DNA from: an uncultured Clostridia bacterium
GTDB taxonomy: Bacteria; Bacillota; Clostridia; Oscillospirales; Acutalibacteraceae
Direction of reading: 5' to 3'
Length of the DNA stretch: 64,000 bases
Assembly (NCBI GenBank): GCA_944384905.1
Contig: CALWVE010000041.1
Coordinates: forward strand, 1 to 64,000
Below are positions 2,521 to 50,339 of the stretch, piece after piece. Numbering within the stretch: the stretch's first letter is position 1; each line of letters opens with the position of its first letter. The notes under the pieces were generated by a model. It searched no databases and was not told where the DNA came from. It worked only from the letters and a program-made list of their open reading frames with translations. A program made the position numbers and the translations under genes.

Positions 2521-4029
2521 TTAAGCATTTACGGCATCTACAAAGCGTAGGAACGCCATGCGGCCCGCCGCATCGGCTTTATACACACCGGCGTCTTCGA
2601 GCACATGCAAAAAGATTTTGCCGACTTCTTCGCGCACAGTCGCTTCGATTTGATCGTCCGGAATCTGCATAGCTTTCAGCTCTTCCAGCCACGGGCGATG
2701 CGCTTCCATGCCCGGCTGCGCCATGCTTTCGGCTTCCTTTTCGGGACAGCGGAGCGCTTCCTCGACAAAAGCCAGTTCCTTTTTCAGGCGGGCGGGCAAC
2801 ACGGCGAGCCCCATCACTTCGATCAGGCCGATATTTTCCTTTTTGATGTGATGCCACTCAGCATGCGGATGGAAAATACCCAGCGGATGTTCTTCGCTGG
2901 TGCGGTTGTTGCGCAGGACCAGATCCAGCTCAAATCCATCGGAACGCATACGCGCAATCGGCGTGATTGTATTGTGCGACGTGCCGTTTGTCTCGGCAAA
3001 AATACCGGCGGCCGGATCGGAATACCCACGCCACTGATTCAAAATGCGGGTAGCCAGCGCGCAAAGACGCTTTGCATTAGGCGAGCGCAGACGGATCACC
3101 GACATCGGCCACTTAACCAAGCCGGCTTCTACATCCTCGAAACCGGCAAATTTCACCGGACGGATAATGGGCGCTTTGGCCATGGGGAATTCAAAATGGC
3201 CGCCCTGGAAATGATCGTGCGTCAAGATAGAACCGCCGACAATCGGCAGGTCTGCATTCGATCCCAGGAAATAATGCGGGAATTTCTTAACAAAATCGAG
3301 CAAGCGGCGGAAAGTCTTTTCCGAAACCTGCATCGGCGTGTGCGCCTGATTGAGCACGATGCAATGTTCATTGTAATACACATACGGCGAATACTGGAAG
3401 AACCAGTTTTCCCCGTCGAGTGTAAGCGGGATCATGCGGTGATTGGCACGGGCCGCCTGGCTCACACTGCCCGCAAAGCCTTCGTTTTCGCGGCACAGGG
3501 CGCATTTCGGATACCCGGTCTGCTTCATCGTTTTGGCGGCGGCAATTGCCTTCGGGTCTTTTTCCGGCTTGGAAAGGTTGATGGTAATCACCAGATCACC
3601 GTATTCGGTGGGCGTTTCCCACTTCACGTCACGCGCCACACGGTCGGTACGGATATAATTCGAAGCGAGGCTGAGACGATAATAAAAATCGGTGGCCAAA
3701 CGGCTGTCCTGCATATACAGGCTGTTAAAGCGACGGATCACTTCGGAAGGCCGCATCATCAGGCAGTTCATGATTTCGGTATCGAACAAATCGCGATACA
3801 CAACGGTATTGTGCTCGAGCTTGCCGTTTTCGGCGGCCCAATCGAGCATTTCTTCCAACACAGGCGCCGGACTTTCCAGCGTCTCTTCTACGGGAACAGG
3901 GGTAAATTCCGATAATCCCAGCAAATAAAGCAAACGGTTCGCCGTATATACGGTGTCTTCGGGTTCAATCAACCCCTGCTGCAATCCATAATGCAGCAAA
4001 CGGTTGACGGCAAAATTGATATCGATCAT
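2521..4029 (-). CDS. galT: UDP-glucose--hexose-1-phosphate uridylyltransferase, class II GalT
   Basis: The 502-residue protein has the length and sequence of the Firmicutes-type GalT (GalP_UDP_transf plus C-terminal domain), not the shorter E. coli type. GGSILTHDHFQGG carries the HxH-type nucleotidyl-transfer site, and FEFPMAKAPI and HPHAEWHHIKKENIGLIEVMG are further family blocks. It transfers UMP between UDP-glucose and galactose-1-phosphate in the Leloir pathway. The frame is open further upstream, but ATG at 4029 is chosen because AGGAGTG sits 8 bp before it and the family N terminus begins there. It is the second gene of a minus-strand pair. No galK or galE is seen in the window. Confidence 0.93.
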   Translation of the reverse strand: MIDINFAVNRLLHYGLQQGLIEPEDTVYTANRLLYLLGLSEFTPVPVEETLESPAPVLEEMLDWAAENGKLEHNTVVYRDLFDTEIMNCLMMRPSEVIRRFNSLYMQDSRLATDFYYRLSLASNYIRTDRVARDVKWETPTEYGDLVITINLSKPEKDPKAIAAAKTMKQTGYPKCALCRENEGFAGSVSQAARANHRMIPLTLDGENWFFQYSPYVYYNEHCIVLNQAHTPMQVSEKTFRRLLDFVKKFPHYFLGSNADLPIVGGSILTHDHFQGGHFEFPMAKAPIIRPVKFAGFEDVEAGLVKWPMSVIRLRSPNAKRLCALATRILNQWRGYSDPAAGIFAETNGTSHNTITPIARMRSDGFELDLVLRNNRTSEEHPLGIFHPHAEWHHIKKENIGLIEVMGLAVLPARLKKELAFVEEALRCPEKEAESMAQPGMEAHRPWLEELKAMQIPDDQIEATVREEVGKIFLHVLEDAGVYKADAAGRMAFLRFVDAVNA

Positions 4030-4962: not shown

Positions 4963-6135
4963 ATGCAGAATTTTATGTACAATACCCCTACGCAAGTTTT
5001 CTTCGGCCGCGGCGTGGAAAAAGAAATCGGTCCGCAGCTGAAAGCGCGCGGATACAAAAAGATCATGCTGCACTACGGCGGCGGAAGCATCAAGCGCACC
5101 GGTCTGTATGACAAGGTAACCGAAAGCCTGCGCGAGGCGGGGCTTGATTGGATTGAACTGGGCGGCGTAGCGCCGAACCCGAAGATCAGCTTTGTTCGTG
5201 AATGCCTCAAGATCTGCCGCAAAGAGCAGATCGATTTCATTCTGGCTGTGGGCGGAGGCAGTGTCATCGACAGCGCCAAAGCTATCGCCATGGGACTGGC
5301 CAACGACAAAGACCCGTGGGAAATCATCACCGGCGGCAAAATGCCGGAGAAAACGTTCCCGGTGGGTGCTGTTCTGACGATTTCGGCCGCCGGCAGCGAA
5401 ATGAGCAATTCGCATGTTATCACCAATGAAGAAATTCACATGAAACGCGGCCTCAACACCGAAATGGTACGCCCGGTGGTCGCTTTTATGAACCCGGAAA
5501 ATACCTTCACGGTTTCGCCGTTCCAGACCGGATGCGGCATTGTAGATATTATGATGCACACGCTGGAACGATACCTCACCCCGGATGAGGACGCCATCCT
5601 CACCGACCGCATCGCGGAAGCGCTGCTGGTAAGCGTAAAAGAAGCCGGTCCTGTAGCTCTGAAAAATCCGGAAGATTATGAAGCTCGTTCCACGCTGATG
5701 TGGGCTTCCAGCCTCTCGCATAATGGCCTTACAGGTTGCGGCAAAACATTTGGATTCACCGTCCACAAGCTGGAGCATGATTTCAGCGGCGTATTCGACA
5801 ACATTGCACACGGCGCCGGTTTGTCCGTCTTGTTCCCGGCCTGGGCGGCCTATGTTTACAAAGACAATGTGAAGAAATTTGCCCGCCTGGCCGAAAAGGT
5901 CATGGATATTCCGGTAGGCGAAGACGAAGAAGCCACGGCGCTGGCCGGTATTCAGGCTTTCAAGGACTATTTCCGCTCGCTCGGCATGCCCGTCACGCTG
6001 GGTGAACTGGGCGTTCCGGCTGACGCCTATGAACAGATTGCCAATCTTACCACAGCCAACGACACGAAAAAAGTTCCGGGCTTCCGCGAACTGACCAAGG
6101 CCGATTTGCTGGCTATCTATAAGCTGGCTGAATAA
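4963..6135 (+). CDS. Iron-containing alcohol dehydrogenase (BDH/YqhD-like)
   Basis: The 390-residue protein belongs to the Fe-ADH superfamily. The N-terminal domain carries GGGSIK near 40 and the cofactor-phosphate loop GGGSVIDSAKAIA near 98-110. The C-terminal helical domain holds the likely metal ligands Asp195, His199, His268 and His283. Butanol dehydrogenases of clostridia and E. coli YqhD share this layout. They reduce aldehydes to alcohols with NAD(P)H in the cytoplasm, so a role in fermentation or aldehyde detoxification is likely. It is a single-gene unit with its own promoter (4892-4920) and terminator (6172-6200). Confidence 0.92.
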   Translation: MQNFMYNTPTQVFFGRGVEKEIGPQLKARGYKKIMLHYGGGSIKRTGLYDKVTESLREAGLDWIELGGVAPNPKISFVRECLKICRKEQIDFILAVGGGSVIDSAKAIAMGLANDKDPWEIITGGKMPEKTFPVGAVLTISAAGSEMSNSHVITNEEIHMKRGLNTEMVRPVVAFMNPENTFTVSPFQTGCGIVDIMMHTLERYLTPDEDAILTDRIAEALLVSVKEAGPVALKNPEDYEARSTLMWASSLSHNGLTGCGKTFGFTVHKLEHDFSGVFDNIAHGAGLSVLFPAWAAYVYKDNVKKFARLAEKVMDIPVGEDEEATALAGIQAFKDYFRSLGMPVTLGELGVPADAYEQIANLTTANDTKKVPGFRELTKADLLAIYKLAE

Positions 6136-7621: not shown

Positions 7622-8743
7622 TTATTCAAACTTTTCTGCGGCTTTCTCAAGCATACTCATAATTTCAATGTGCTGCGGGCAATGCATTTCGCAGTTTCCG
7701 CAATGCAGACATTCAGAAGCCTTACCGCCATCCTGCGTATGCTTTTCATAGCGCTTACGGCCCTGCTCTTCGTTTCCGTATACACTGACATAGTTCATGC
7801 AGTCGCGGAAAATCTTGGGGATATTGATTTTCATCGGGCAACCGTCTACGCAATAGCGGCATTCCGTACAGGGAATCGTAGGCGTGTTATTAAGAATCTC
7901 CACAACCTGATCGATAACCTTCTGCTCCGCTTCATCCAGCGGCTTGAAGTTTTCCATAAAGCTGACGTTATCGTTGAGCTGTTCCATATTGGACATACCG
8001 GAAAGCACTGTGATAATGCCCTCATGGGAAGCTGCAAAGCGAACTGCCCAGGAAGCAACGGAAGCATCGGGATTAGCCTTCTTGAAAATTTCCTGAACCT
8101 GCGGGGTCATGGTTGCCAGAGAACCGCCCTTAACCGGCTCCATAATGATAACCGGTTTGCCGTGCTTGCGCGCAACTTCATAACATTTACGCGACTGCAC
8201 ATTTTCGCTTTCCCAGTCGGCATAGTTGATCTGCAGCTGAACGAACTCCACTTCCGGATGAGCGGTCAGCAATTCATCGAGCATTTCGGCCGTATCGTGG
8301 AACGAAAAACCGGCATGCTTGATTTTGCCTTCCTTTTTCAGCTTCTGGATGAAATCCCAGGTGCCCAGCTTATCCAGGCGATCCACAACCGTGCGGCTGA
8401 GGGAATGCAGCAGATAGAAATCGAAGTATCCGGCGCCGGTGCGCTCCAAGGACGTGTCAAACATCTTCTGCATTTCGGCAGGATCTTCTACGCTCCACAA
8501 AGGCAGCTTGGTAGCCAGCTGGAAGCTTTCGCGCGGATAGCGATCGACCAGCGCAGCTTTGGCGGCCGCCTCCGATTTTCCGCCGGAGTAGACATAGGCC
8601 GTATCAAAATACGTAAATCCCTTGGACATAAATGTATCGACCATTTGCTTGGTTTGCTCCAAGTCGATTTCATCGCCAATCGTGGGCAGACGCATCAGGC
8701 CAAAGCCCAGCTTTTTGATTTCGGATCCCAAATAATCAGACAT
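7622..8743 (-). CDS. Aldo/keto reductase with C-terminal 2[4Fe-4S] ferredoxin-like domain
   Basis: The 373-residue protein has an N-terminal AKR TIM barrel (about 1-285) with FDTAYVYSGGKSE carrying the catalytic Tyr and FYLLHS carrying the His. The C terminus holds two ferredoxin-type cysteine clusters, CTECRYCVDGCP (from 292) and CLHCGNCEMHCP (from 345). This fused form is common in anaerobic Firmicutes and is thought to couple carbonyl reduction to iron-sulfur electron transfer; the substrate is unknown. The start is ATG after TGGAGGAA, with a consensus promoter at 8814-8842. Confidence 0.92.
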   Translation of the reverse strand: MSDYLGSEIKKLGFGLMRLPTIGDEIDLEQTKQMVDTFMSKGFTYFDTAYVYSGGKSEAAAKAALVDRYPRESFQLATKLPLWSVEDPAEMQKMFDTSLERTGAGYFDFYLLHSLSRTVVDRLDKLGTWDFIQKLKKEGKIKHAGFSFHDTAEMLDELLTAHPEVEFVQLQINYADWESENVQSRKCYEVARKHGKPVIIMEPVKGGSLATMTPQVQEIFKKANPDASVASWAVRFAASHEGIITVLSGMSNMEQLNDNVSFMENFKPLDEAEQKVIDQVVEILNNTPTIPCTECRYCVDGCPMKINIPKIFRDCMNYVSVYGNEEQGRKRYEKHTQDGGKASECLHCGNCEMHCPQHIEIMSMLEKAAEKFE

Positions 8744-8813
8744 GATAAAGTTCCTCCATTTTTGATTTGCTAAAAATTTACAAGCACATCAAAAAAGAAC
8801 ATTTACCGCTTTT

Positions 8814-8842
8814 ATGATACACTTATAAATTTTATTTGTCAA
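8814..8842 (-). promoter_or_regulatory. Promoter of the aldo/keto reductase gene
   Basis: On the minus strand TTGACA (8842-8837), 17 bp, TATCAT (8819-8814). It lies in the gap between the nucleoside hydrolase stop and the reductase start. Confidence 0.8.
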
Positions 8843-8874
8843 TTTATCAGAGAAAGATCAACCGTGACAAACCT

Positions 8875-9792
8875 TCACTTGTTGAGCAAACCGAACAATT
8901 GCTCAAAAACCGCATCCCGATCGACATGCCAGACATAGCCCATGCTGTGACGGGTCATGTCAAACGCAAAATGTCCGTCGTATTCGGGGATAGCCGCGGG
9001 CAAGCGGCAATCTTTTACCATCTTCTCTTCCTCATCGGCCAGCCAGGCCATAACCGAGATATCCCAGATCACCCGGCTCCACGGTTTGCTCGCGGCATAA
9101 CCGTCGGCTTCCTCACAGGTATGCTCATACAGATAATCGCACAAAGCGCTTTTCCCTTTCAGCCAGAAGGCGAGTTCCGGCTTGGTTGTGCGCAATTCGC
9201 TGACCACGCCCATGCAAGGCAGCTGTACAAGCGGAACCCCGCAGCCGAAAATCACCCGCGCGGCCGCAATATCCTGATGCAGATTAAATTCCTTGTTATC
9301 TGGCCAATGGCGGGCGTGTCCGCCCAGCCAGACCACAACGATTCGCTCGGCAATCGAGGGATCCATCAGGATAGCTGAAGCCACGTTGGTGATGGCTCCG
9401 ATCGCCGCCACATACAGCGGACGTTCGGGCGAATATTCCCGCGCCAGTTCCACCAGCCGGCGGGCGGCAGGAGAATCTACCGGCGTTTGTTCGTCCGGCA
9501 GATACTCCTTCGAGCCGCGATAAACCTGCGGGATAAAATCCTCTCTGCCCATCAGCTTGAGCAGATTGAGGATTTCGTCATAACTTTTTTCCATTCCGTC
9601 GGCCGGGCCTGTGGAACGTGCGTTAAAAAACGGCGCGGCCAAAATCGATTTCGGCGAAAACTTTTCCGCAAAAAGCATCATATAGGCAATGGCAAACTGG
9701 TCGTCTATTTCGTTAAATGCATCGGTATCGAGCACCAGATCGATCTTTCCCTTGGGACGGCGCAGATTCCGAAGACGCTGTTCTTCCGTCAT
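8875..9792 (-). CDS. Inosine-uridine-type nucleoside hydrolase
   Basis: The 305-residue protein carries the family's N-terminal calcium-binding signature, here DTDAFNEIDDQFA (about 22-34), plus YVAAIGAITNVASA and IVVVWLGG further on. Family members cleave the N-glycosidic bond of nucleosides, releasing base and ribose. It is the last gene after the large glycoside hydrolase (30-bp gap), with GGAGGAG before the ATG. The neighbouring GH and sugar kinase suggest a catabolic context. Some relatives act on sugars other than nucleosides, so the substrate is open. Confidence 0.88.
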   Translation of the reverse strand: MTEEQRLRNLRRPKGKIDLVLDTDAFNEIDDQFAIAYMMLFAEKFSPKSILAAPFFNARSTGPADGMEKSYDEILNLLKLMGREDFIPQVYRGSKEYLPDEQTPVDSPAARRLVELAREYSPERPLYVAAIGAITNVASAILMDPSIAERIVVVWLGGHARHWPDNKEFNLHQDIAAARVIFGCGVPLVQLPCMGVVSELRTTKPELAFWLKGKSALCDYLYEHTCEEADGYAASKPWSRVIWDISVMAWLADEEEKMVKDCRLPAAIPEYDGHFAFDMTRHSMGYVWHVDRDAVFEQLFGLLNK

Positions 9793-9822: not shown

Positions 9823-12447
9823 TTAATAGGCTACCGTAATCGTGCTTTCCTTTCCGCGGGGCACTTGAATCATCCAGGCATCTCCCACGCGTCGCGGCGA
9901 AACCTCTTCCCCGTTTACGCAAACGCGGACGGTTTCCTTGCGCGGCACAAACATCAGCGAGCAGTTTCCTTCTGCTTCGAAGCAAGGCGCAACACAAAGC
10001 GTATCGGCCGATTCGGATTCCGTCTTGCTCGTCAGGCGCAGCTGCACCGGCAGGGTGACGTGTCCGGGCGTATAAAGGCTTGCATACCACATGACAACCG
10101 GCGAAGAAAGACCGCCGAAGCAGTGCCAACCGGCGCCGCGCTGAGATTCTACCATGAAGTGCTCGTAGCAGCGATAGGAATAATCCGCCTCATTTTTCCA
10201 GACGCGCAGGGCGGTTTCAGCAATACGGGCGGCATATTCGTCGTAACCGTATTCCAGCATACCCCAGAAAGCAAACCACTGATGCGGCATCCAGACAGAG
10301 CCGTTCCAATAACCGTCGCGGCGATAATACGGCGCGGACTGATCGACAACCGAAATACCGATATCCGTCCACATACGGGCGGGGTCCATAATGCGGGAAG
10401 CCAGTTCTTCCTGCTGTTCCTGCGTGCAAACACCGGCCATCAACGGATAAGCGCCGTCGAGACCCATATTGTAGTTTTCACCGGTTTCACAGCGCATCAA
10501 GCCGGTGGGTTTGCCTGCGTCGTCGTGCATCACATAGCTAAAATAACCACTTTCGGCATCGTAAGAGAACGTTTGCAGCGCATCGGTAAACGCCTGAATA
10601 TCCTGCTTATAATCCTCATCGGGCAGGCCCAGCTCGTGCGCCGCATGCGCCAGAATACGGGCGAAGTTAATCGCATGCGATGTATTGGACGCCGTAGCGT
10701 AACGATCGGTTTTCATCATAGCCGCAACTGCTTTGCCGATTTTAGCGCGGTCGCCGCTGCGGAAGCTTTCCATAATCGTTTTGAAAATCGCGTGCTGCGG
10801 CGGATAATCGTCCCACCCGCCGGAGTTATAGAAATACCGGAAGGTACTCAGCAGGCCGGTTTCCAGCTGATTGGTTTTGGAAAGCGGATTGCGTCCCACA
10901 TAGAAATCATAGTACTGGCGCATTTCATCGTAATGCTCACGCAGGAAGTCACGATCGCCCGTGGCATCGAAAATCTTCTTATACACATAAGCCTGCACCG
11001 GAACCATACTGCCGTGATGAATAAACGCGCAGTGCGGGTTGCCGGGTTCTGTGAGATACAGGTTAAGGCTTTCTTCCGCCCATTGCGGCGCAAAATCGGA
11101 AAAGCCCAGCGCGATAAAACCGCTGTCCCACGTATAGAGAGAATCCCACCACTTACCGGGCGTAAAATGGCGAACATAGCGTCCCTGCAAACGAACCGGG
11201 AACACCACATTGGTCAGCATGGTGGCGCGCATCAGCTGCTGGCTCAGGCCATAGGTTCCTTCCGGAGCAGGAACTTCCGGGAAGCCGTTTTCCATGCCGC
11301 CAGCCGCAAAGCGGTTCAGCGTTTCGTCTACTTTTTCGGCACTGCCGCAAGTTAAAACAGCGTAGAAAACTTTCTCCTCGCCGGGTGCAAGCGGAATCGG
11401 ACGCACAAATACATCCGTATACTGCTGATCTTTATCCCGGCCAATCACTTTATCCACATGGTTCTGGATATTAAACGGCATCACAGTCGCCAGGTCGTGC
11501 GTCAAAAATTCGCGTACCTGGGAAAGTTCCCCCTGCCAGCCGATGCCGTAGGTATTTTTCATCTGCGCATAAGTCAGCGCGGCACGGCGATCGCCTTCTT
11601 CAATCGTCGGGCGAATATTGGGATTTTCCGAAGAGAACGTCGGTTCTTCGCCGGCCTTGCCCAAACCGATGTAATCGATCGTAGCACCACCGGGCTGTGT
11701 ACAGGTCAGCGTCAGCTCGCCGCTGGTTTTTTCCAGCGGGAAAGCAAGCAACGTCATAGCATCGTTGTTCAGTTCAATCGAAGCGCTGCATACGCCCGAC
11801 GCCTGCAAAACGGCATGTCCACTTGCGCGCAGATACAAGGTATCTTTACCGGAAGTATTTACGGTATAGGTTACGCAGTCCCCTTCCGTCTGGCCGAAAA
11901 GCTCGCCCAATGCATGGCCGTTCACAAAATTGCCGCCCAGCACTTCCCCGCGCAGCTTGCCGTCGGGATTCAAACCGGGCGCACGTTCGTTTCCCCGAAT
12001 CTCCAGCGTCTGATAGGCCAGCGGATCAACGAGCTCAGCAGTACCATCAACCGAAACAAACGGCGGACGGTAGCTATTGGCCAGATAATGCAGGCAAAGG
12101 TTCTGGGACATTTCCGTGTTGTTGACACAGCGGGCCCGCACCAAGACGGTCTGCTCATTCTGAATCCAATAGGAAACATCGCAGTAAACACGATCTTTCC
12201 ATTCCACTTCAAAGCGGTAGGTATAAAAACGCAGATCTTCGTTTGCATGCCAGGGATACTGGTTGCACGGATAGACCTCTACCGGCACCTGCATCGCGCC
12301 GCGATACTGCGCCGGGAAAACAGAAAATTCCAGCATTTCGCCGGTTTCTTCGTTTTCAATATGCGAAATGCCGGCCAAATGTTTGGAATACGGACCCCAG
12401 TCGGAAAGCGCCGTGGGATACTCTTTGTGGATTGTAGGATAGTGCAT
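9823..12447 (-). CDS. Large (alpha/alpha)6-barrel glycoside hydrolase (MGH1/GH63-like)
   Basis: The 874-residue protein lacks a signal peptide and is probably cytoplasmic. An N-terminal beta-rich half (about 1-400) is followed by a helical-barrel half with WWDSLYTWDSGFIALGF, FYNSGGWDDYPPQH, RRDGYWNGSVWMPHQWFAFWG and YEHFMVESQRGAGWHCFGGLSSPVVMWY. These match trehalase/GH63-type six-hairpin glycosidases, where an Asp in the barrel and a late Glu are catalytic; the exact residues were not assigned. The frame extends to 12501, but ATG at 12447 follows AAAGGAGGAATCC. The substrate is unknown; alpha-glucosides or mannosides are plausible. Confidence 0.8.
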   Translation of the reverse strand: MHYPTIHKEYPTALSDWGPYSKHLAGISHIENEETGEMLEFSVFPAQYRGAMQVPVEVYPCNQYPWHANEDLRFYTYRFEVEWKDRVYCDVSYWIQNEQTVLVRARCVNNTEMSQNLCLHYLANSYRPPFVSVDGTAELVDPLAYQTLEIRGNERAPGLNPDGKLRGEVLGGNFVNGHALGELFGQTEGDCVTYTVNTSGKDTLYLRASGHAVLQASGVCSASIELNNDAMTLLAFPLEKTSGELTLTCTQPGGATIDYIGLGKAGEEPTFSSENPNIRPTIEEGDRRAALTYAQMKNTYGIGWQGELSQVREFLTHDLATVMPFNIQNHVDKVIGRDKDQQYTDVFVRPIPLAPGEEKVFYAVLTCGSAEKVDETLNRFAAGGMENGFPEVPAPEGTYGLSQQLMRATMLTNVVFPVRLQGRYVRHFTPGKWWDSLYTWDSGFIALGFSDFAPQWAEESLNLYLTEPGNPHCAFIHHGSMVPVQAYVYKKIFDATGDRDFLREHYDEMRQYYDFYVGRNPLSKTNQLETGLLSTFRYFYNSGGWDDYPPQHAIFKTIMESFRSGDRAKIGKAVAAMMKTDRYATASNTSHAINFARILAHAAHELGLPDEDYKQDIQAFTDALQTFSYDAESGYFSYVMHDDAGKPTGLMRCETGENYNMGLDGAYPLMAGVCTQEQQEELASRIMDPARMWTDIGISVVDQSAPYYRRDGYWNGSVWMPHQWFAFWGMLEYGYDEYAARIAETALRVWKNEADYSYRCYEHFMVESQRGAGWHCFGGLSSPVVMWYASLYTPGHVTLPVQLRLTSKTESESADTLCVAPCFEAEGNCSLMFVPRKETVRVCVNGEEVSPRRVGDAWMIQVPRGKESTITVAY

Positions 12448-41614: not shown

Positions 41615-41642
41615 ATTATAGAAGAATATGCAAAATTGTCAA
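41615..41642 (-). promoter_or_regulatory. Promoter of the MBL-fold hydrolase gene
   Basis: On the minus strand TTGACA (41642-41637), 16 bp, TATAAT (41620-41615). Both hexamers are perfect. Confidence 0.82.
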
Positions 41643-41699: not shown

Positions 41700-42371
41700 T
41701 TAGTCTATTATGGGAAAATGATCTTTATTTTTATCCTGCTCCAGGGTAAGTTCTTCCAAAAAAGTACCGAAATACTCCGCTTCTGCATTCTGCCGCGCTT
41801 CAACGGCTTTTTCCAGTGTATCGTATCTTCCTAAATAATATCGTTTCCCCTGAAAAGTAAGACGAGACACCCATTTCTGGTTTTCCCGGTCATAGTAAAC
41901 ACCGACCACGCCGCAGCTGTTGGTGCTTTCACGCGGAATATTTTTGATACGGGAAAGCTGAGTCCCGCCTACATAGCCCGCCGCACCGCGCATCTTTTCT
42001 ACTTTTTCGGTCACGGAACAACCGCAGCTTTGCGTCGTACCGGAAGTCAGCGAATCCATCCGCACGAGCGTAATGTTCCCGCAGTCACATCGGCATTTCC
42101 ACAGCGGCGATTTCGTGCTGCCATGCTGGACATATTCCTGCGTCTTTTCCAGCACCGTCAGTTTTCCAAAACGTTTGCCGATATACGGAGCCGTTCTGCG
42201 GCATCCGCAGCTCACGGTGTGACCGCGCTTTAAATTATTGCCCGCAACATCAATCACTTTTCCGCAGGTGCACCGACACGTCCAATACACCACGGAAGCT
42301 TTTTTATCTGAACGATGCAGCACAGTAAGCCAGCCAAACTGCTTTCCGGTTAAATCAATCATGCGGCTCAT
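41700..42371 (-). CDS. AP2-domain protein with tandem zinc-ribbon-like repeats
   Basis: The 223-residue protein has two related N-terminal repeats. Each runs from a G-x-x-F-G-x-L-T-V-L segment through WTCRCTCG or WKCRCDCG to a C-G-C triplet, and looks like a zinc-binding unit. A C-terminal AP2/ERF-like DNA-binding domain (GVYYDRENQKWVSRLTFQG, then KRYYLGRYDTLEKAVEAR) follows. Such proteins often derive from phages or homing endonucleases; no HNH nuclease domain is seen here, so it may be a domesticated DNA-binding protein. ATG at 42371 follows GGAGGTG. It stands alone, in an AT-richer stretch. Confidence 0.8.
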   Translation of the reverse strand: MSRMIDLTGKQFGWLTVLHRSDKKASVVYWTCRCTCGKVIDVAGNNLKRGHTVSCGCRRTAPYIGKRFGKLTVLEKTQEYVQHGSTKSPLWKCRCDCGNITLVRMDSLTSGTTQSCGCSVTEKVEKMRGAAGYVGGTQLSRIKNIPRESTNSCGVVGVYYDRENQKWVSRLTFQGKRYYLGRYDTLEKAVEARQNAEAEYFGTFLEELTLEQDKNKDHFPIID

Positions 42372-42426
42372 TTCAAACACCTCCACTCCTATCAAATTTT
42401 TCGCCGTTTTTTACTATTTATAAGTA

Positions 42427-42485: not shown

Positions 42486-43145
42486 TCAGTTGGTTCTTTT
42501 CTTTCTTTTAACAGCGAAGAAAAGTCCAACCATTGCGACAACGCTCACCGAGCAGATTACCGCGTAAATCCACAAGTAGGGATCATCGCCGGTCTGCGGC
42601 GGTGTGGGATCCGTAGGCTCAATCGGCAGCTCTTCTACTTTAAACTGCCAGTTGATTTTGCCCACAGCGTTCTGGAATTCATCGCCCATGGTAAGCGGAA
42701 CATCCAGCTTGACGTTCAGGTCAACATCGGCGCCGGAATAGAACGTGCCCAGGCACACCCAATCCTTCAGGCCGTCCGTCTGATCGGCAGGTGCCGCAAA
42801 CAGTTCTGAATCGCCTTCCTGCGTCACGGTCAGGTTCATCTGAGAGAGGAAAGCTGCGCCGTCTTCTTCTGCGCCCAAAGAGCGCAGGTAGATTTTCACC
42901 TTAACCTGATTGGGGGCATCGTTTTTCACGGTGATTTTCTGCGTAAGCGTATCCCCGGGCATCACGCCCTTGAAATTGTCGAACAGGTCTGTCGGAGATT
43001 CATCGCTGCCCGGTGCGAAAATAAATTTCTTCGCGTTGCCCTCATACTGAACGGAAGCATCCGCAGCAAAGGCAGGCACCGCCATGCAAACAAGCATCAT
43101 CAGAGCAAGGAGAGCGCAGAAAACAGATTTCATTCTTTTTTTCAT
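42486..43145 (-). CDS. Cell-wall-anchored TasA/camelysin-cluster protein with PPQTG sorting signal
   Basis: The 219-residue protein has a signal peptide ([20 protein letters not shown]..., cleavage probably after AFA near 27) and an all-beta body. The body carries the phrases [15 protein letters not shown] and [20 protein letters not shown], also found in TasA-like proteins. The C terminus has a Pro-rich stretch, PPQTGDD, a transmembrane helix and the basic tail KRKKR. The QTG-type motif suits a sortase, so this protein may fix the fibre to the wall. No sortase gene is in the window. It is the last gene of the cluster, 13 bp after the preceding one. Confidence 0.82.
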
Positions 43146-43158
43146 CTTGCATACCTCC

Positions 43159-43746
43159 TTATTCCGTAATCTGGCCGTTTGAAACGGTTACGCCCCAGGC
43201 CTGCTGCACAGCTCTGTCCGGGTTAGCCTGAATAGCATCTGCCAGAATTTCTACGACAAGATGGCAATTCGCAGGGCCTTTCCCATAGACTGATCTACAC
43301 TCGCCAATCAGAAGCGGGGTTGCAGTACCAGCGGCGACCTTTGTTTTGCAGTACCAGTAGCCGTCTTTTTGGAACCAACCATTTTCTGTGTTATAGGTAA
43401 TGGTATAATCTGCATTTTCTACCGGTACCTCAGCGGCAATATTGCCATCTTTATCCTGCCAAGTAGCGACCACCTTTGCGCGGATATAGGCTTCTGTAGT
43501 GCCGGTATTCTGAACGCTTACATCTCTTTTTACAACCATGCCATCTTCAAACTCTTCGTTGACACTACAGGCAACTTTATCGTACTGGAAGTTGTTGGTC
43601 ACAGGTTCGGGCGAATCAACCAAAAATGCGATGGTTGTACTGGTCAGGCCGGCCACCAAAAGAATAAGGGAGACCAGCAGTGCAAAGGGTTTGATGACCC
43701 GCTTAGGGGTTACAGAAAGCATATGTTTGCCTTTATACATGTTCAT
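43159..43746 (-). CDS. TasA/camelysin-like protein with SipW-type signal sequence (paralogue 4)
   Basis: The 195-residue protein has a longer cytosolic N terminus (about 18 residues), a hydrophobic segment, then [19 protein letters not shown], a divergent form of the alanine-aromatic/leucine-x-D plus N-x-F pattern that marks SipW substrates. The body includes [19 protein letters not shown] and [15 protein letters not shown]. These features are shared with the other paralogues, so it is probably a minor fibre or adaptor subunit. It starts 12 bp after the VWA gene, with AAAGGAGGCC upstream. Confidence 0.78.
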
Positions 43747-43758
43747 GGCCTCCTTTCT

Positions 43759-46224
43759 TTATTGCGGGGGAATGCCAAACTTATTCTCTGTGTAAGCAGA
43801 GCCGTTCAGCCATTTCCAATCGGTTCCGGTACCATCACTCTCTTCGGCACGATCATTGGCAAAATTAACCGTAGCTTTGCCGTTCTGAATATTGGCAGTT
43901 GTTACGGTTTTAGAAACTTCATCAGGCTCGTATCTCCAGCTCCAGTTGGTATCTTCCGTAACGGTATAAGTACCCGAAGGCAGACCCTTAATGGTCTTGC
44001 TGCCGTTGCCATTGATGACAACCTGCATGGTGAAACCATTGGAACCAGTTACAGTAAAGACAAAGCTCTGGTTTTCGTCAATAGCTTTACAACCAGTCTT
44101 GGTAATGGTCAGGTCGAAGCTCTTGATATGAACGATGAATTCGCACTCATCCGGATCAAACTGGCAGCCGTCAAAGGTGCAATCCTTGTGCGCAAAAGTT
44201 ACATACTGCGTTACATCGCTGCCGCCAATTTTTACGGTAACATTCACCTTTGTTTCCTGCGTAAAGGCATTAGCCTGAGGTGCGTACTCATAAACAAGTT
44301 CAGGTGCTTTGCCAACCATCTTATCTTCATCGTAAGCTACGGTATCATGTTTCCATTCGACACCCGCAAAGTTCTGCTTTTGGTAATCGGCCGTTTCTCC
44401 AACATTGAGTTGGCTGTCTTTCCAGGTGATTTCAGGCTTGAAGACGTAAATGTTAGCTGTGCCGTTACCATTTTGAGCCTTGACAGTTCCCTCATATTTA
44501 GGTGCTACTTCCATGCCAAGGTCATAGGTTCGGTCATCCGTCACACCGGTAATATTCGGGTTGCTGACAGTAAAATTAACAAACTCATTCTGCCAAGACT
44601 GTAAACCATAGTTTTCTGCGGAAGGATCAAGGTTCACCTCAACACCGCCCACAGTAACGGTTGCGTCTTTCTTTGCTTCGTCCGCAGTCAAATCGCCCAT
44701 GAGATAGAGGTTTTTGTCTTTGGGGGCGATTTTAACTTCCCCAATCGGGACATCTACGGTAGGCTGCGGGAAAGCTTCAAAGAAGTTGTCCTCACCATAA
44801 ACACCGGAATCAGCGCCGTTGGTGGGAACGCTGTTGCCGCCCAGGAATCCATCTTTTGCCGTAACGGTAAATTCAATAATCAGCTTCTTACCATAGAAAT
44901 CGCCCTCACGCGGATCCTCTGAAACAAAGTTTTCGTTAAAGTTAAACCCTGTAACAGAAACGACGCCATTGTTAACCGTTACGTTAACATCGGTTTCTTC
45001 TGTGCGAGCGCCAAAGTTACTGCCATCATAAGCAGCCGTAAATACTTTGATTTCTGACGGATCGGTAGGCGCGTTGAAATAAGGCGCAACCACATCACGA
45101 ATTTCGGTTTCCGGACCCAATTGAATACTCGGAGTAGAAATTTCATCCGAAATGGTCTGGAAAACATCGTTCAGGCCTTCCTGATCGGATGCGGTCAGGT
45201 AATAACCGGTATCCGTGCGGGTAAAGTTTTGGGTTACCTCATATGTAAATTTCTTGTGCAGAATTCCCAAACCGCTTTCAGTTCGATTCAAACCAATTGC
45301 ACTGGCATCCATAAAATTATTGGATAAATAATTCAAAAATCTATTACCAGCTGGGATATCAACTTCTGGGAAATCTCGTAGCCCAGGTAACAATTCCCAG
45401 TTATCAGAAATCCATTCTGATCCAACAGAACCATCACTGTTTGTATCAAAACCACTTGCGCCATATAATTCATCTGGATTCGCACCATCAAAAATACCGA
45501 CAGAGTAAACGGTTACACCAGCGTTTTTCAGGTTCAAAGCAAACTTAATTGCATTATTGGCAACGTCGACACTAAAATCAGAGCTTGTTGTCGGAACACC
45601 ATCGGTGAAAACGATCACAACCTTCTGGCGGGTTGTATTGTCACCTGTATAGTTATGACCGGAACCCATCAAGGTTTCAGCTGAACTCATACCAAAATCA
45701 ACGCGTGTAGCACCAGAAGGCGAGTTTGGCAAATCATTGACTACACCTTTCAATGTCTGCTCACCCTGTTGGTTTACATAGGTCCAACCTTTTTTCGTGC
45801 TGGCGCTATCGCCAAACGTAACGATAGCCATACGATGGTCGGCCGTTTCGGCGTTATACTGTTCAGCCACGGAATCGATAAAATTCACAACAGCCTGTTT
45901 CATGGCTGCCTGACGGGTGGTATTGCCAAAATCATCTGCCATAGACCCGGACTGGTCGAGCACCAGAACGATATCAAGCGGAACTGCCGATTCCACACTG
46001 GTCACCGAACCGGTGGTATAAGCTTCCATGGTGATGGTATAGCTGCCGTCATCATTGGTGGCGGCTGTTTTGCCCACATACAGGCCGTTTCCGTCTTCAT
46101 CCGTTGCCTGCAAAGGCGCAGCGGTATTTCCACTCTGCGCATAAGCCAGGCTGGCAGGAATCACTGCGCCCAGCACAACCGCAGCAGCAAGCAGGAATGA
46201 TAAAATCTTTTTCTTCATTTTCAT
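43759..46224 (-). CDS. Large secreted VWA-domain adhesin with SpaA-like C-terminal domain
   Basis: The 821-residue protein has a signal peptide (cleavage near AYA-Q, residue 29-30). A von Willebrand A domain (about 80-365) carries the MIDAS motif DQSGS at residues 90-94 and FTDGVPT later. Beta-rich repeats follow, then a SpaA/Cna-B-like domain (LTITKTGCKAIDENQSFVFTVTG, LPSGTYTVTEDTNWSWRY) near the end. No LPXTG-type anchor is present, so it may be held by the fibre proteins. Tip adhesins of pili have a similar VWA-plus-beta layout. Surface adhesion is the likely role (inference). It starts 10 bp after the preceding TasA-like gene. Confidence 0.83.
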   Translation of the reverse strand: MKMKKKILSFLLAAAVVLGAVIPASLAYAQSGNTAAPLQATDEDGNGLYVGKTAATNDDGSYTITMEAYTTGSVTSVESAVPLDIVLVLDQSGSMADDFGNTTRQAAMKQAVVNFIDSVAEQYNAETADHRMAIVTFGDSASTKKGWTYVNQQGEQTLKGVVNDLPNSPSGATRVDFGMSSAETLMGSGHNYTGDNTTRQKVVIVFTDGVPTTSSDFSVDVANNAIKFALNLKNAGVTVYSVGIFDGANPDELYGASGFDTNSDGSVGSEWISDNWELLPGLRDFPEVDIPAGNRFLNYLSNNFMDASAIGLNRTESGLGILHKKFTYEVTQNFTRTDTGYYLTASDQEGLNDVFQTISDEISTPSIQLGPETEIRDVVAPYFNAPTDPSEIKVFTAAYDGSNFGARTEETDVNVTVNNGVVSVTGFNFNENFVSEDPREGDFYGKKLIIEFTVTAKDGFLGGNSVPTNGADSGVYGEDNFFEAFPQPTVDVPIGEVKIAPKDKNLYLMGDLTADEAKKDATVTVGGVEVNLDPSAENYGLQSWQNEFVNFTVSNPNITGVTDDRTYDLGMEVAPKYEGTVKAQNGNGTANIYVFKPEITWKDSQLNVGETADYQKQNFAGVEWKHDTVAYDEDKMVGKAPELVYEYAPQANAFTQETKVNVTVKIGGSDVTQYVTFAHKDCTFDGCQFDPDECEFIVHIKSFDLTITKTGCKAIDENQSFVFTVTGSNGFTMQVVINGNGSKTIKGLPSGTYTVTEDTNWSWRYEPDEVSKTVTTANIQNGKATVNFANDRAEESDGTGTDWKWLNGSAYTENKFGIPPQ

Positions 46225-46234
46225 CTATTCCTCC

Positions 46235-46789
46235 TTATTCTGCGGGCCAACCGGCAGCTTTCAGCACATCCGAGCCGTTGTTTTCAGCTTGCACGGCATA
46301 CGCCGTTACCGTGATCTTTGCCTGGCTGTTCTGATACTCGTTACCCATGTCTTTGCTGAATGTAACCGTTGTAAACAGCGGCTGTGTAGTTGCTCCGGCG
46401 GCCAAAGGCTGCTTATAGTAGTAATAGCCGTCTTTCTCAACCCAGTCCTGCGTATTGAAATCAAGACCGATCAGGCTCAGATCAGCTTCTTCGGGCAGGT
46501 CGATCTGCGTTTCCACACGCACGCGAACATAAGCATCGTGGTCGCCGGTGTTTTCCACCTGAACGATTTTGGATACCTGTGTACCCGGCATAACTCCGAT
46601 TGCATCCTCAAACGGAACCAGCGTTTCGCCATCTTCGGCCAGAGCCGATTCTTTGAGGGAAACGTCGATATTGCCCGCGGTAACCACGTTTGTGGCCGTA
46701 TCTTCTGCCGTAAAATAGGCAACCGTCCCGTAAGCTGCGATGCAGATGCAGATCGCCGTCAGCGCTGCAAGCAGCAACTTCTTTTTCAT
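46235..46789 (-). CDS. TasA/camelysin-like protein (paralogue 3)
   Basis: The 184-residue protein has a signal anchor ending in AYFTAEDTATNVVTAGNIDVSL, the typical SipW-dependent signature. The body has MPGTQVSKIVQVENTGDHDAYVRVRVE and WVEKDGYYYYKQPLAAGATTQPLF. These blocks recur in paralogues 2 and 4. It is a likely extracellular fibre subunit. It is separated from paralogue 2 by 150 bp holding two mutually exclusive hairpins (46844-46915) and is close to the VWA gene. Confidence 0.83.
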   Translation of the reverse strand: MKKKLLLAALTAICICIAAYGTVAYFTAEDTATNVVTAGNIDVSLKESALAEDGETLVPFEDAIGVMPGTQVSKIVQVENTGDHDAYVRVRVETQIDLPEEADLSLIGLDFNTQDWVEKDGYYYYKQPLAAGATTQPLFTTVTFSKDMGNEYQNSQAKITVTAYAVQAENNGSDVLKAAGWPAE

Positions 46790-46939: not shown

Positions 46940-47491
46940 TTATTCACCCATGCAGGTTTCAAACCAAGCTGCGATGGATTCGGGAGTGAGTGTACCCGTA
47001 AAGCCTTCGGCCTGAACAGCTTCAGCGGTGATAACGATGTTCATTTCTTCACCCGTGCCGTTTGTCGTTGCAGGATCCAGCCGGATTTCATCGAACAAAG
47101 CGTCGGTGGTTGCATCGGGATCCAGAATGCTCTGGTAGTAGTACACACCGTCACGTGCAGTCCAGTTATCGCCGAGCTTGTATTCAACGCCATCGGTCAA
47201 ATAATCCAGATCAACATTTTCAGGCCATTCGATCTTGACACGGAGCAGGCAGGGGTTATTGCCAACGTTGGTCACGGTCGGGTCTTTGGAAACGACTTCG
47301 CCGGGATACATATTCACAGCATCCTCAGGCTCCCAGTTGGGCTCGGTCAGTTCGATATCCACATTGCCAACGGTAAACACGTTATCTGCTTTATCCGTAT
47401 CGGTGAAGTAAGCCAGCGTGCCGCCTACAATTGCCGTTGCTGCCAGAGAAGCAGCCAGTGCTACAGAAACGATTTTCTTCTTTGCGTTCAT
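46940..47491 (-). CDS. TasA/camelysin-like protein (paralogue 2)
   Basis: The 183-residue protein has the strongest SipW-type leader: GGTLAYFTDTDKADN-VFTVGNVDIEL right after the hydrophobic segment. The body shows YPGEVVSKDPTVTNVGNNPCLLRVKIEW and WTARDGVYYYQSILDPDATTDALF. TasA-family proteins form extracellular amyloid-like or fibrous biofilm matrix; the same is inferred here. It lies 70 bp after paralogue 1, with GAAAGGAAGG before the ATG. Confidence 0.85.
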   Translation of the reverse strand: MNAKKKIVSVALAASLAATAIVGGTLAYFTDTDKADNVFTVGNVDIELTEPNWEPEDAVNMYPGEVVSKDPTVTNVGNNPCLLRVKIEWPENVDLDYLTDGVEYKLGDNWTARDGVYYYQSILDPDATTDALFDEIRLDPATTNGTGEEMNIVITAEAVQAEGFTGTLTPESIAAWFETCMGE

Positions 47492-47561: not shown

Positions 47562-48098
47562 TTACGGCTGAACCTTTGCCCAAGCTTCAGCAGGCTCGAA
47601 GTGCTCAGTGTTGTTCTTCATGTACTGCACAGCATAAGCAGTGAAAGTCAGGGTAGGAGCATTTGCAGATACTGCTTCAATTTCTTCTTTGGTCAGATTT
47701 TCGCTAACCACAACTTTGTTATCTTTCAGAACAGCAAAAGTCTGATCAGCCTTGTTGGTATCAACGACCTGATAATAGACACCCGTTTCCAGTTCAGTCC
47801 ATCCATCGGCGATAGCATAGCTCAGCTCATCGATCCAGTTCGCTTCATCAACTTTTACGAACAGATAGCAAGCTTCGGAATCAGCTTCTACTGTAACCTT
47901 GGGGTCTTTGGCAATTTCGGTACCGGGAAGGATTTTGTATGTTGCCGGGGTTTCCGTCAGGGTGATATCGATGTTACCAACGGTGAAGGTATTGACCACC
48001 GGGTCGGTTTTATCCGTCAACCAAGCCAGAGTGCCTCCAATCACACAACAAGCCGCCAGGGCAACTGCAACAACAGATGCCAAAAGTTTTTTCTTCAT
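47562..48098 (-). CDS. TasA/camelysin-like protein (paralogue 1)
   Basis: The 178-residue protein starts MKKKLLASVVAVALAACCVIGGTLAWLTDK and continues NTFTVGNIDITLTETP, fitting the SipW-dependent class. The body has LPGTEIAKDPKVTVEADSEACYLFVKVDE and TGVYYQVVDTNKADQTFAVL, parallel to paralogue 2. It is the first fibre gene after the signal peptidase gene, which should process it. GGAGGAAAAAGAA precedes the ATG. Confidence 0.85.
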   Translation of the reverse strand: MKKKLLASVVAVALAACCVIGGTLAWLTDKTDPVVNTFTVGNIDITLTETPATYKILPGTEIAKDPKVTVEADSEACYLFVKVDEANWIDELSYAIADGWTELETGVYYQVVDTNKADQTFAVLKDNKVVVSENLTKEEIEAVSANAPTLTFTAYAVQYMKNNTEHFEPAEAWAKVQP

Positions 48099-48138: not shown

Positions 48139-48675
48139 TTATGATTCAGGCGGTATTTCCTTTTTCTTTTTTTCGGAATCGTCGCTCTTCATCCAGCGAA
48201 TGAGATCCGGCAAGAAAACCACAAGCAGCAGCACCGCGCCCACCGCAATACACACATAAAGCCCGGGCGGCTGCTGAATATAAGAAGCCACATACCCCAA
48301 ATAAGGAATCGAAAACACCGGTACGCCGATCAGGTTTTTAAAATGCACCGGCTGGCCGTCGGCGGCTTCATTGGCATCGCCTTTGGTATAAAACCGCTGG
48401 TTTTCTTCATCGATCTCAATCACGCGATGCGTAGCAACGACTAAATCTTCGTTCAAAACAAACGTAATGGGTTGTCCCACTTCCACATCCTGCGGGTCGG
48501 TTGCTTTTACGTAAATTAACGAGCCGACGGGATAGGTTGGCTCCATACTTCCTGAAAGAACCGTGTACGGCTGGAGTCCGATCAAACGCACACCCACCAA
48601 AAGCACAGCTAAAATCACAACGAGTGTCACCAATATTACGGATAGAACATTCCAAATCTTTTTACACAAAGCCAT
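48139..48675 (-). CDS. SipW-like (ER-type) signal peptidase I
   Basis: The 178-residue membrane protein has an N-terminal helix (about 8-33), the catalytic Ser43 in LSGSMEPTYPVGS and His83 in VVATHRVIEID. A His instead of the Lys of standard bacterial SPase marks the SipW/archaeal/ER type. YTKGDANEAADG follows, with a C-terminal helix (about 137-160) and a charged tail. SipW enzymes are specific for TasA-like exported proteins, four of which follow immediately. It is the first gene of the cluster; the upstream sequence (48676-48766) has no convincing promoter in the present orientation. Confidence 0.92.
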   Translation of the reverse strand: MALCKKIWNVLSVILVTLVVILAVLLVGVRLIGLQPYTVLSGSMEPTYPVGSLIYVKATDPQDVEVGQPITFVLNEDLVVATHRVIEIDEENQRFYTKGDANEAADGQPVHFKNLIGVPVFSIPYLGYVASYIQQPPGLYVCIAVGAVLLLVVFLPDLIRWMKSDDSEKKKKEIPPES

Positions 48676-48766: not shown

Positions 48767-48790
48767 TTTTTTCGTAGAGTTACACAATTT
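48767..48790 (+). repeat. Left inverted repeat of the switch
   Basis: 24 bases, core CGTAGAGTTACACAATTT (48773-48790) preceded by six T. It is exactly complementary to 50209-50232 and lies 91 bp upstream of the signal peptidase start codon. Confidence 0.9.
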
Positions 48791-48831
48791 GATAAAACAT
48801 CGCAAAATCAATAGCATTTTTCTTAAAAAAT

Positions 48832-48862
48832 AAAGAACGCCGACGGTAAAAACCGACGGCGT
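48832..48862 (-). terminator. Terminator of the recombinase gene
   Basis: An imperfect stem (ACGCCG...CGGCGT with inner CGG/CCG around one mismatch) follows the recombinase stop by 5 bp, with TTCTTTATTTTTT after it on the minus strand. It should stop recombinase transcripts before they enter the fibre cluster. Confidence 0.82.
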
Positions 48863-48866
48863 ATTT

Positions 48867-50003
48867 TTAGAACCCGATTGCGGGAAGCTTGTTCATGTTT
48901 TCTCTCTTGAGTTCCATAGAGGAATGGACGTACCTGTCGAGCGTGACCTCAACAGATGCATGCCCCAAAATCTCGCTAAGTGATTTGATCTCAAAATCCA
49001 CCTCCACACAACGGGTTGCAAAAGTATGCCGCAAGGCGTGGAAGTTGACATCCCTTAGTCCGCATGCTTCCGTATATTTTTTGAAATGATACTGCATGAG
49101 CCTTGGCTCCATAAAACGCTCAACCTCGCCCGTTAAGACAAAGGCCTGCGGAGGATGGTTCCCCATCCTGGCGCATAATTCCACCGTTTGGGGCATCAGC
49201 GGAATGATCCTTTTAGACGTAAGGCTTTTGGGTTCATCGATTAGTATTTCTGTTTTTTCCTGTGTCATGGGGTCTTTTTTCTGTAATCGCTGCATGGTTG
49301 CACCTACCTGAACAGTTCGATCAGGCAGGGAAATATTTTGCCAACGCAGTGCACAGATTTCACCGATTCGCATTCCTGTCATCAGGGTGAGCAAAATCCC
49401 AAATTTACAGTCATCCAGGTCTGTGAGCAAATAGCGCACCAGACGATCCTGCTCTTCTCTGGAAAGTACGCGCATTTCTTTTTTGGTTTCTTTAGGATAG
49501 ATGATTTCGAAATCAGAAAGCTTGCAGCCTCCCTGCTTTTTGGCGTACTTCAAAATAGAATGAAGAATCGTCAGGATATCTCGAACGGTTTTTGTCGATA
49601 AGCCGCCGTCTTTTTGAAGCGCTCCGTTTACCAATAATTCATGGCTGAAATTTTCCAGAACAGCCGTACTGATAAACTGCGGCATGCAGGAACCCAACCG
49701 GGGAACAATATAATTCTGAACTGTACTGCGGTACTTTATATAAGTAGATTTTTTGATTCGGCTGCGATTTATTACCAGCCATTCTCCGCAATAATCTGCC
49801 AAAATTTTCTTGCTGTTTGAAGCTGGAGCAGAACGATTCAGCAAGTCGGCCTGTGCTTTGGTCTGCTTTTCATGTGCTTCCCGAAACGTTTTGCCGTAAA
49901 CATACCCATATCGTATTTTCCCCGACAGATCGTAACCTTTGATATAACGACCTTCCCAACGTCCGTCTTTTCTTTTATAAATGTTCTTTCCTTTTTTAGC
50001 CAT
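48867..50003 (-). CDS. Tyrosine recombinase (phage-integrase family)
   Basis: The 378-residue protein has an N-terminal arm-binding-like segment (KRKDGRWEGRYIKGYD), a SAM-like core-binding domain (about 65-155) and a catalytic domain. The catalytic residues are Arg212 (TGMRIGEICALRW), His322-x-x-Arg325 (HALRHTFATR), His348 (ILGHASVEVTLDRYVH) and the nucleophile Tyr358. This is the full integrase layout. ATG 50003 is chosen over one three codons upstream that abuts the ribosome-binding site. It is the only gene inside a pair of perfect inverted repeats, so it is proposed to flip its own segment. An integrase of a degraded mobile element is the alternative. Confidence 0.92.
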   Translation of the reverse strand: MAKKGKNIYKRKDGRWEGRYIKGYDLSGKIRYGYVYGKTFREAHEKQTKAQADLLNRSAPASNSKKILADYCGEWLVINRSRIKKSTYIKYRSTVQNYIVPRLGSCMPQFISTAVLENFSHELLVNGALQKDGGLSTKTVRDILTILHSILKYAKKQGGCKLSDFEIIYPKETKKEMRVLSREEQDRLVRYLLTDLDDCKFGILLTLMTGMRIGEICALRWQNISLPDRTVQVGATMQRLQKKDPMTQEKTEILIDEPKSLTSKRIIPLMPQTVELCARMGNHPPQAFVLTGEVERFMEPRLMQYHFKKYTEACGLRDVNFHALRHTFATRCVEVDFEIKSLSEILGHASVEVTLDRYVHSSMELKRENMNKLPAIGF

Positions 50004-50147
50004 ATCCCTCATCCTTTCTTGGCTTTATATAAATGAATTTGACGGTAATTTTGACGGCCTATATCTTCTAATGCCTTGCTTTATTCTTCTATTTATGAAA
50101 TAAAAGTTACCAAAATGATGAATATCAAGTTTTTTCTAGCTTTTCTA

Positions 50148-50176
50148 TTGATTTTTAAAAATCATTATGCTACAAT
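50148..50176 (+). promoter_or_regulatory. Outward promoter inside the invertible segment
   Basis: TTGATT (50148-50153), 17 bp, TACAAT (50171-50176), pointing right and away from the recombinase gene. The predicted start (about 50183) is inside the segment, 26 bp before the right inverted repeat. No gene follows on the plus strand in the current orientation. Confidence 0.75.
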
Positions 50177-50208
50177 CAAACCCATAAAGAGCGAAACTAT
50201 AATTTCTT

Positions 50209-50232
50209 AAATTGTGTAACTCTACGAAAAAA
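50209..50232 (-). repeat. Right inverted repeat of the switch
   Basis: Exact reverse complement of 48767-48790, with AAATTGTGTAACTCTACG as its first 18 bases followed by six A. Confidence 0.9.
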
Positions 50233-50290
50233 TCCATTTTATGTGTTTGTTTACCCATTGACAAAACACATATCAATTTACTAAAGAAAT

Positions 50291-50339
50291 AAAAAGAGCC
50301 TTTGTTTTGTACGTCTATACAAAGCAAAGGCTCTTTTTT
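50291..50339 (+). terminator. Strong terminator facing the outward promoter
   Basis: A 14-bp stem (50291-50304 / 50325-50338) extended by TTTGTA/TACAAA, with the T-run built in. It lies 115 bp after the outward promoter and would stop transcription in the current orientation. The following 130 bp (50340-50470) show nothing recognisable. Confidence 0.85.

Follow-up and report, generated by a model that had tools for sequence, protein, structure and literature searches.

A putative promoter inverton carrying its own tyrosine recombinase before a SipW/TasA fibre cluster, one of a family of similar segments

The window, the stretch of 64,000 nucleotides from an uncultured gut Clostridia bacterium analysed here, contains a recombinase gene and a promoter-like element set between two inverted repeats, beside a cluster of surface-fibre genes. 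The segment and its far flank have the following features.

48767..50232, no strand assigned: putative invertible segment, whole, with 24-bp perfect inverted repeats; the opposite orientation stands before the same cluster in L107-L109
48767..48790, no strand assigned: inverted repeat on the sipW side, with the recombination core site CGTAGAGT-TACAC
48836..48860, minus: paired probable arm-type sites GCCGTCGG / ACCGTCGG at the downstream end, overlapping the recombinase terminator, supported by family enrichment; the match in the window is degenerate
48838..48858, minus: recombinase terminator, inside the segment (-18.0 kcal/mol, z -5.2)
48867..50012, minus: tyrosine recombinase, 381 aa, with a predicted arm-binding-type N-terminus (PF00589 6e-23, PF14659 2e-5)
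50035..50058, minus: paired probable arm-type sites GCCGTCAAAATT / ACCGTCAAATTC at the upstream end, supported by family enrichment
50148..50176, plus: predicted outward promoter TTGATT-17-TACAAT with an extended -10 (TGC), same position and strand across the family
50209..50232, no strand assigned: inverted repeat on the far side
50291..50339, no strand assigned: strong terminator in the far flank (-28.1 kcal/mol, z -8.0), with similarly placed hairpins in L107-L109

The first-pass annotation described 24-bp inverted repeats enclosing nothing but a recombinase and an outward promoter, and that description holds. The arms agree at all 24 positions (at 28 of 30 over a longer stretch) and form the sole inverted pair of at least 20 bases within 5 kb in the whole window, and the one gene between them, on the minus strand, is that of the recombinase. 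A multi-locus switch was considered and dropped, as the repeat is confined to one locus, with no further copies in the rest of the 2.19-Mb genome. The core is conserved across the recombinase family as TCG(C/T)AGAGT-N5-ACTC, with variation, and compared with relatives the second half-site of the window copy is degenerate (CGTAGAGT-TACAC-AATTTGAT). Extra copies of the core site are present as direct repeats beside one arm in L008, L013, L016, L063 and L110, an arrangement in which other flips or short deletions could take place.

The recombinase gene is intact and all catalytic-type residues are present. R215, K262, H325, R328, H351 and Y361 are invariant across 70 homologues and match the conserved R-K-H-R-H-Y set, with K262 assigned as its lysine by position. 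A structure model built on the family alignment, with a mean pLDDT of 89.9, has strands at residues 11-13, 19-27 and 33-40 followed by a helix at 43-59, and the arm-binding domain of IntTn916 is likewise defined as three strands and a helix (PMC8138268). The N-terminus is thus predicted by the model to be of the arm-binding type, resembling the domain of the IntTn916 subgroup; the window recombinase has no Pfam arm-domain match. The closest solved structures to the model are Tn1549 integrase and, next, lambda integrase. Arm-binding tyrosine recombinases have been described as enzymes of mobile elements (PMC8138268), and the IntTn916 subgroup is defined as carried by such elements, but in the window the recombinase is alone between its sites.

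Homologues of the recombinase, mostly at 38-65% identity, came from two sources: species-level genomes belonging to the window's own family and order, and a scan across bacteria and archaea in which each species was represented by a single genome. With near copies excluded, 73 loci had enough flank to be tested, and in 71 of them an inverted repeat scoring at least 15 brackets the recombinase, compared with 0.5% of shuffled flanks; most brackets start 200-310 bp before the start codon and end 90-240 bp after the stop. Among phage-like integrases below 36% identity two of 56 reach this repeat score, one of the two having the family core, and so the bracket is a property of this clade and not of integrases generally. 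The first-pass reading of the segment as a switch is supported, with the refinement that it is a member of an extensive family whose targets are many.

The promoter proposed in the first pass is found where it was placed, also with a TG extension. Promoter-like matches in the window region number six where shuffles give 5.0, which is not above chance, and the argument for the promoter therefore rests on its conserved position in the family. Over the first 90 bp on the inner side of the upstream arm, 66% of the loci reach a promoter-like score of at least 12 on the outward strand, against 1.4% for the opposite strand and 0.6% for shuffles, and at the downstream end of the family loci an outward promoter occurs at background level only. 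The window, L007 and L008 all have TTGnTT-17-TACAAT with TGC before the -10, and the constancy of the boxes despite differing spacer sequences points to selection on the promoter itself. Both terminators named in the first pass fold as expected of them, and that of the far flank is two-way, its other strand folding at -25.7 kcal/mol. Immediately outside the far repeat, at 50236-50264 on the minus strand, there is a promoter-like TTGTCA-17-TAAAAT that would read into the recombinase in the present orientation only; inspection by eye of L007 and L008 revealed no counterpart.

Between the arms and the gene, family members are rich in the motif CCGTCA. Summed over the family there are 65 copies in the stretch that separates the upstream arm from the gene and 49 in the stretch from the gene to the downstream arm, where about 1.4 per side would be expected; nearly all copies share one direction, and 34 of the 71 loci have it at both ends. 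The upstream pair in the window is clear, with the two copies 12 bp apart. These repeats are probably arm-type sites, and their enrichment is consistent with an arm-binding recombinase.

On the other side of the segment the neighbouring genes, in the direction of the minus strand, are these.

48139..48675, minus: SipW-type signal peptidase, whose gene opens the target cluster (TIGR02228 2.4e-31, above cut-off)
47562..48098, minus: SipW-dependent TasA/BsaA-like protein 1
46940..47491, minus: SipW-dependent TasA/BsaA-like protein 2 (TIGR04090 6.7e-18, above cut-off)
46235..46789, minus: SipW-dependent TasA/BsaA-like protein 3
43759..46224, minus: VWA-domain surface protein, 821 aa (PF00092 5e-16)
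43159..43746, minus: TasA-like protein 4 (TIGR04090 3.7e-7, below cut-off)
42486..43145, minus: C-terminal hydrophobic-anchor protein (weak match to a sortase-dependent protein model; conserved in L007, L008 and L107-L109)
41700..42395, minus: AP2-domain protein, end of the conserved cluster

With a SipW-type peptidase and SipW-dependent fibre proteins the cluster agrees with the definition of a SipW/TasA (BsaA) cluster (TIGR02228, TIGR04088/TIGR04090). One fibre protein of the window is above the cut-off of the BsaA/TasA model and the others are below it, and its SipW scores under the cut-off of the SipW Bacillus equivalog model. A perfect consensus promoter, TTGACA-16-TATAAT, is present on the minus strand at 41615-41642, at slightly lower coordinates than the AP2-domain gene that closes the fibre cluster.

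Taken together, 48767-50232 is very probably a self-contained promoter inverton, whose recombinase flips its own segment and whose promoter alternates between OFF and ON for the fibre cluster. The Tn916/Tn1549-like recombinase would bind the two inverted core sites and, probably, also the CCGTCA arm-type sites that lie in pairs immediately within its two ends, and the whole segment would invert between the core sites, recombinase gene included, with the sole outward promoter moving along. As the segment now lies, the promoter would fire into the far-flank terminator, leaving the cluster OFF, and after a flip it would read over the repeat into sipW and the TasA-like/VWA genes behind it, turning the cluster ON. 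Because the gene keeps its upstream region and terminator when the segment turns, the recombinase could be made in either state. The first estimate had the flipped promoter about 115 bp upstream of sipW; when the flip is computed the distance from the end of the -10 box to the sipW ATG is instead 148 bp, with a predicted 5′ leader of about 141 nt. The anatomy, its conservation through the family and the two orientations at homologous loci of different species are shown directly; we infer that the segment would flip actively within a strain, that transcription would be tied to its orientation and that the recombinase would bind the arm sites.

The same recombinase before the same ordered cluster is found in both orientations. 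In the window, L007 (Candidatus Avimonas faecium) and L008 the promoter points away from the cluster (OFF), and in L107, L108 and L109, which are three congeneric species from a different family within the order, the segment is reversed, with the recombinase divergent from sipW and the promoter facing it (ON). The cluster of L107-L109 runs, as in the window, from SipW through three TasA-like proteins, the VWA protein, a TasA-like protein and an LPXTG-like protein to the AP2 protein; the repeat is 60-122 bp from the sipW reading frame, and a hairpin terminator stands on the other flank. The first pass had predicted that a flip would switch on the SipW/TasA/VWA cluster and had named, as a check, the reverse orientation in relatives with the same kind of repeats. 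L107-L109 provide it, and the occurrence of both orientations between species supports the first-pass reading.

When 78 recombinases are placed in a tree, the three OFF members and the three ON members (together with L113) come out as sister clades within a set supported at 100/98. The contrast recurs for another target, a giant surface protein that follows a conserved protein of 210 aa: it is OFF in L084 and ON in L114, which are also sisters (100/100), with 74% identity for the first gene and 59% for the giant surface protein over the aligned parts. Well-supported branches of the tree force at least three changes of state. Elsewhere SipW clusters are OFF in L095, L098, L110 and L127 (L098 has the fibre genes and no SipW match) and ON in L121. 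An XRE-type regulator gene is situated between the repeat and sipW in L007 (about 11383-11760) and L008 (5833-6216) and is missing in the window and in L107-L109.

Some points weigh against the inverton reading. The two orientations are seen between species; the comparison was of one genome per species, the window's genus being this genome alone, and the nearest OFF and ON SipW examples belong to different families, with recombinases about 58% identical. Old rearrangements fixed per lineage would look alike, and a promoter internal to the fibre cluster may be an alternative driver. The switch is present in three of eight genomes of the ON genus, each time in the ON state, and a within-genus flip was not found. 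That a segment which once flipped is now locked, the cluster being driven by other promoters, is unlikely. The degenerate second half-site and the degenerate downstream pair of probable arm-type sites in the window fit such a relic. Against it, the recombinase gene is intact with every catalytic-type residue kept, and the arms match each other over 24 bp yet diverge from those of relatives, as continued recombination or selection would yield. Contig ends near the repeats, nine where 4.1 are expected (P 0.018), are a weak excess in a set that is not a random sample, and a weak indirect hint of both orientations within one population.

What the family switches serve is varied. A scan of neighbours gives mixed genes, including signal peptidases, TetR, XRE and LytTR regulators and glycosyltransferases, a list in which targets are not separable from bystanders. 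Neighbouring genes were chosen by a simple ORF rule. Of the 59 loci flanked by such a gene on either side, not one has the two facing inward, where about five are expected from the marginals, and 21 have outward genes on both sides. This last count would suit a switch that alternates between two outward operons instead of having one on/off target, and so would L099 (G360), where, with the recombinase on the plus strand, near-identical 190-bp starts of TasA-type genes at 3545-3734 and 5034-5223 point outward on both sides, as if its promoter were alternating between two fibre genes. For the window such an alternation is most improbable: in the direction of the promoter the far flank offers the strong terminator, then a minus-strand tRNA-Leu and then a ROK kinase gene, whose start is 566 bp past the far repeat.

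The switch is upstream in six of 30 sampled SipW loci of the order, which makes it a lineage-specific addition; the other 24, a few with short flanks, have no segment within the flank seen. Such gain or loss would also be expected of a minimal mobile element, a recombinase between its own ends, inserted by chance or as a portable promoter and excising and integrating without inversion. The Tn916/Tn1549-like arm-binding class normally moves mobile elements (PMC8138268), and the closest structures are those of Tn1549 Int. This reading has, nevertheless, very little probability. The core sites are inverted, which by established tyrosine-recombinase logic gives inversion and not excision, the segment is single-copy in its genome, and the module occurs at the same cluster in both orientations. 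Near-perfect repeats in almost all family members, with an outward promoter conserved at one end, also speak against it. It is rather likely that gut Clostridia have domesticated a large clade of arm-binding transposon-type integrases, which would now serve as self-flipping switches, each with a single promoter and arm-type sites of its own, before many different surface operons, SipW/TasA being one. The arm sites might favour or control one direction of flipping, as they do for integration and excision in lambda and Tn916.

Some relatives sit on mobile or viral-class DNA (L125, L126 and L129; viral contigs L145, L146, L152 and L154). L125, L126 and L129, which are three species of two families, share 9-16 kb of 99.9-100% identical DNA that includes a family switch; in the oriented locus the recombinase is at about 8040-9190, and the repeat is followed immediately by an XRE-type regulator and then by an Erm(B) methyltransferase gene. 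The phage-collection record MT836186 carries the same switch, and all copies of this element have a single orientation. A scan of viral contigs with the window protein as sole query gave no matches. Family members with enclosing inverted repeats are present on viral-class contigs (L145, L146, L152, L154 and L155) and may serve prophages, and L143, L144 and L153, also on viral-class contigs, have related recombinases (43% to that of the window) with no enclosing repeats, which may represent a mobile state or an ancestral one.

If the segment does flip, phase variation of SipW/TasA-type fibres is here hard-wired in DNA, as against the regulatory partial expression of Clostridium perfringens. The module is portable and uniform, with one recombinase and one promoter in about 1.5 kb, and its uniformity makes phase-variable surface operons of uncultured gut Clostridia predictable straight from assemblies, keeping in mind that surveys seeking short invertons could miss a module of this length. 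A transposon-type arm-binding integrase lineage would be in use as a switch, against the general view of the arm domain as a mark of mobile elements.

Invertible promoters before surface genes are well known, gut Clostridia included (PMC11892184, PMC5903667). The Hin segment of Salmonella is like that of the window in having the recombinase gene inside the inverted segment, an outward promoter and a surface-structure gene (PMC5903667, PMC9368917). Hin is, however, a serine recombinase acting with a Fis-bound enhancer, and the window, with its recombinase likewise inside its own segment, has a tyrosine recombinase, probable arm-type sites and another target. Unlike in the window, recombinase genes of the fim type lie outside their segment and their products are not known to have an arm-binding domain. 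Otherwise the E. coli fim switch (FimB/FimE) and similar invertons are comparable, with a tyrosine recombinase, a promoter between short inverted repeats and a surface fibre (cited in PMC8138268). The RecV switches of C. difficile (flgB, cwpV) also involve tyrosine-recombinase inversion before surface genes in Clostridia (PMC5903667, PMC2784873), but RecV serves several genomic switches and the window recombinase is inside its one segment. In Clostridia, inverton group 139 and its invertase group 35 likewise place a tyrosine-type recombinase/integrase beside invertons, and a change of orientation was observed in culture (PMC11892184). Those invertons may be related to the window family, though the two examples with printed coordinates, at about 255 bp, are too short for a recombinase (PMC11892184). 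Tn1549/Tn916 integrase, with the closest solved structures and the three-strand one-helix N-terminus, mobilises its element, whereas the window segment is proposed to invert. The sipW-bsaA operon of C. perfringens has SipW and BsaA fibre proteins and is expressed in part of the population, but its bimodality is via a two-component system and PilA2, and the paper mentions no recombinase (PMC7395162). The first-pass annotation held that a recombinase flipping its own gene for SipW/TasA fibres was undescribed; for the target this stands, as no paper in the openly available literature was found to link an inverton or DNA inversion with SipW, and for a recombinase inside its own segment Hin is a precedent. 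What is notable relative to known promoter invertons is the recombinase class, the breadth of the family and the target, and the main surprise is how broad and how uniform that family is.
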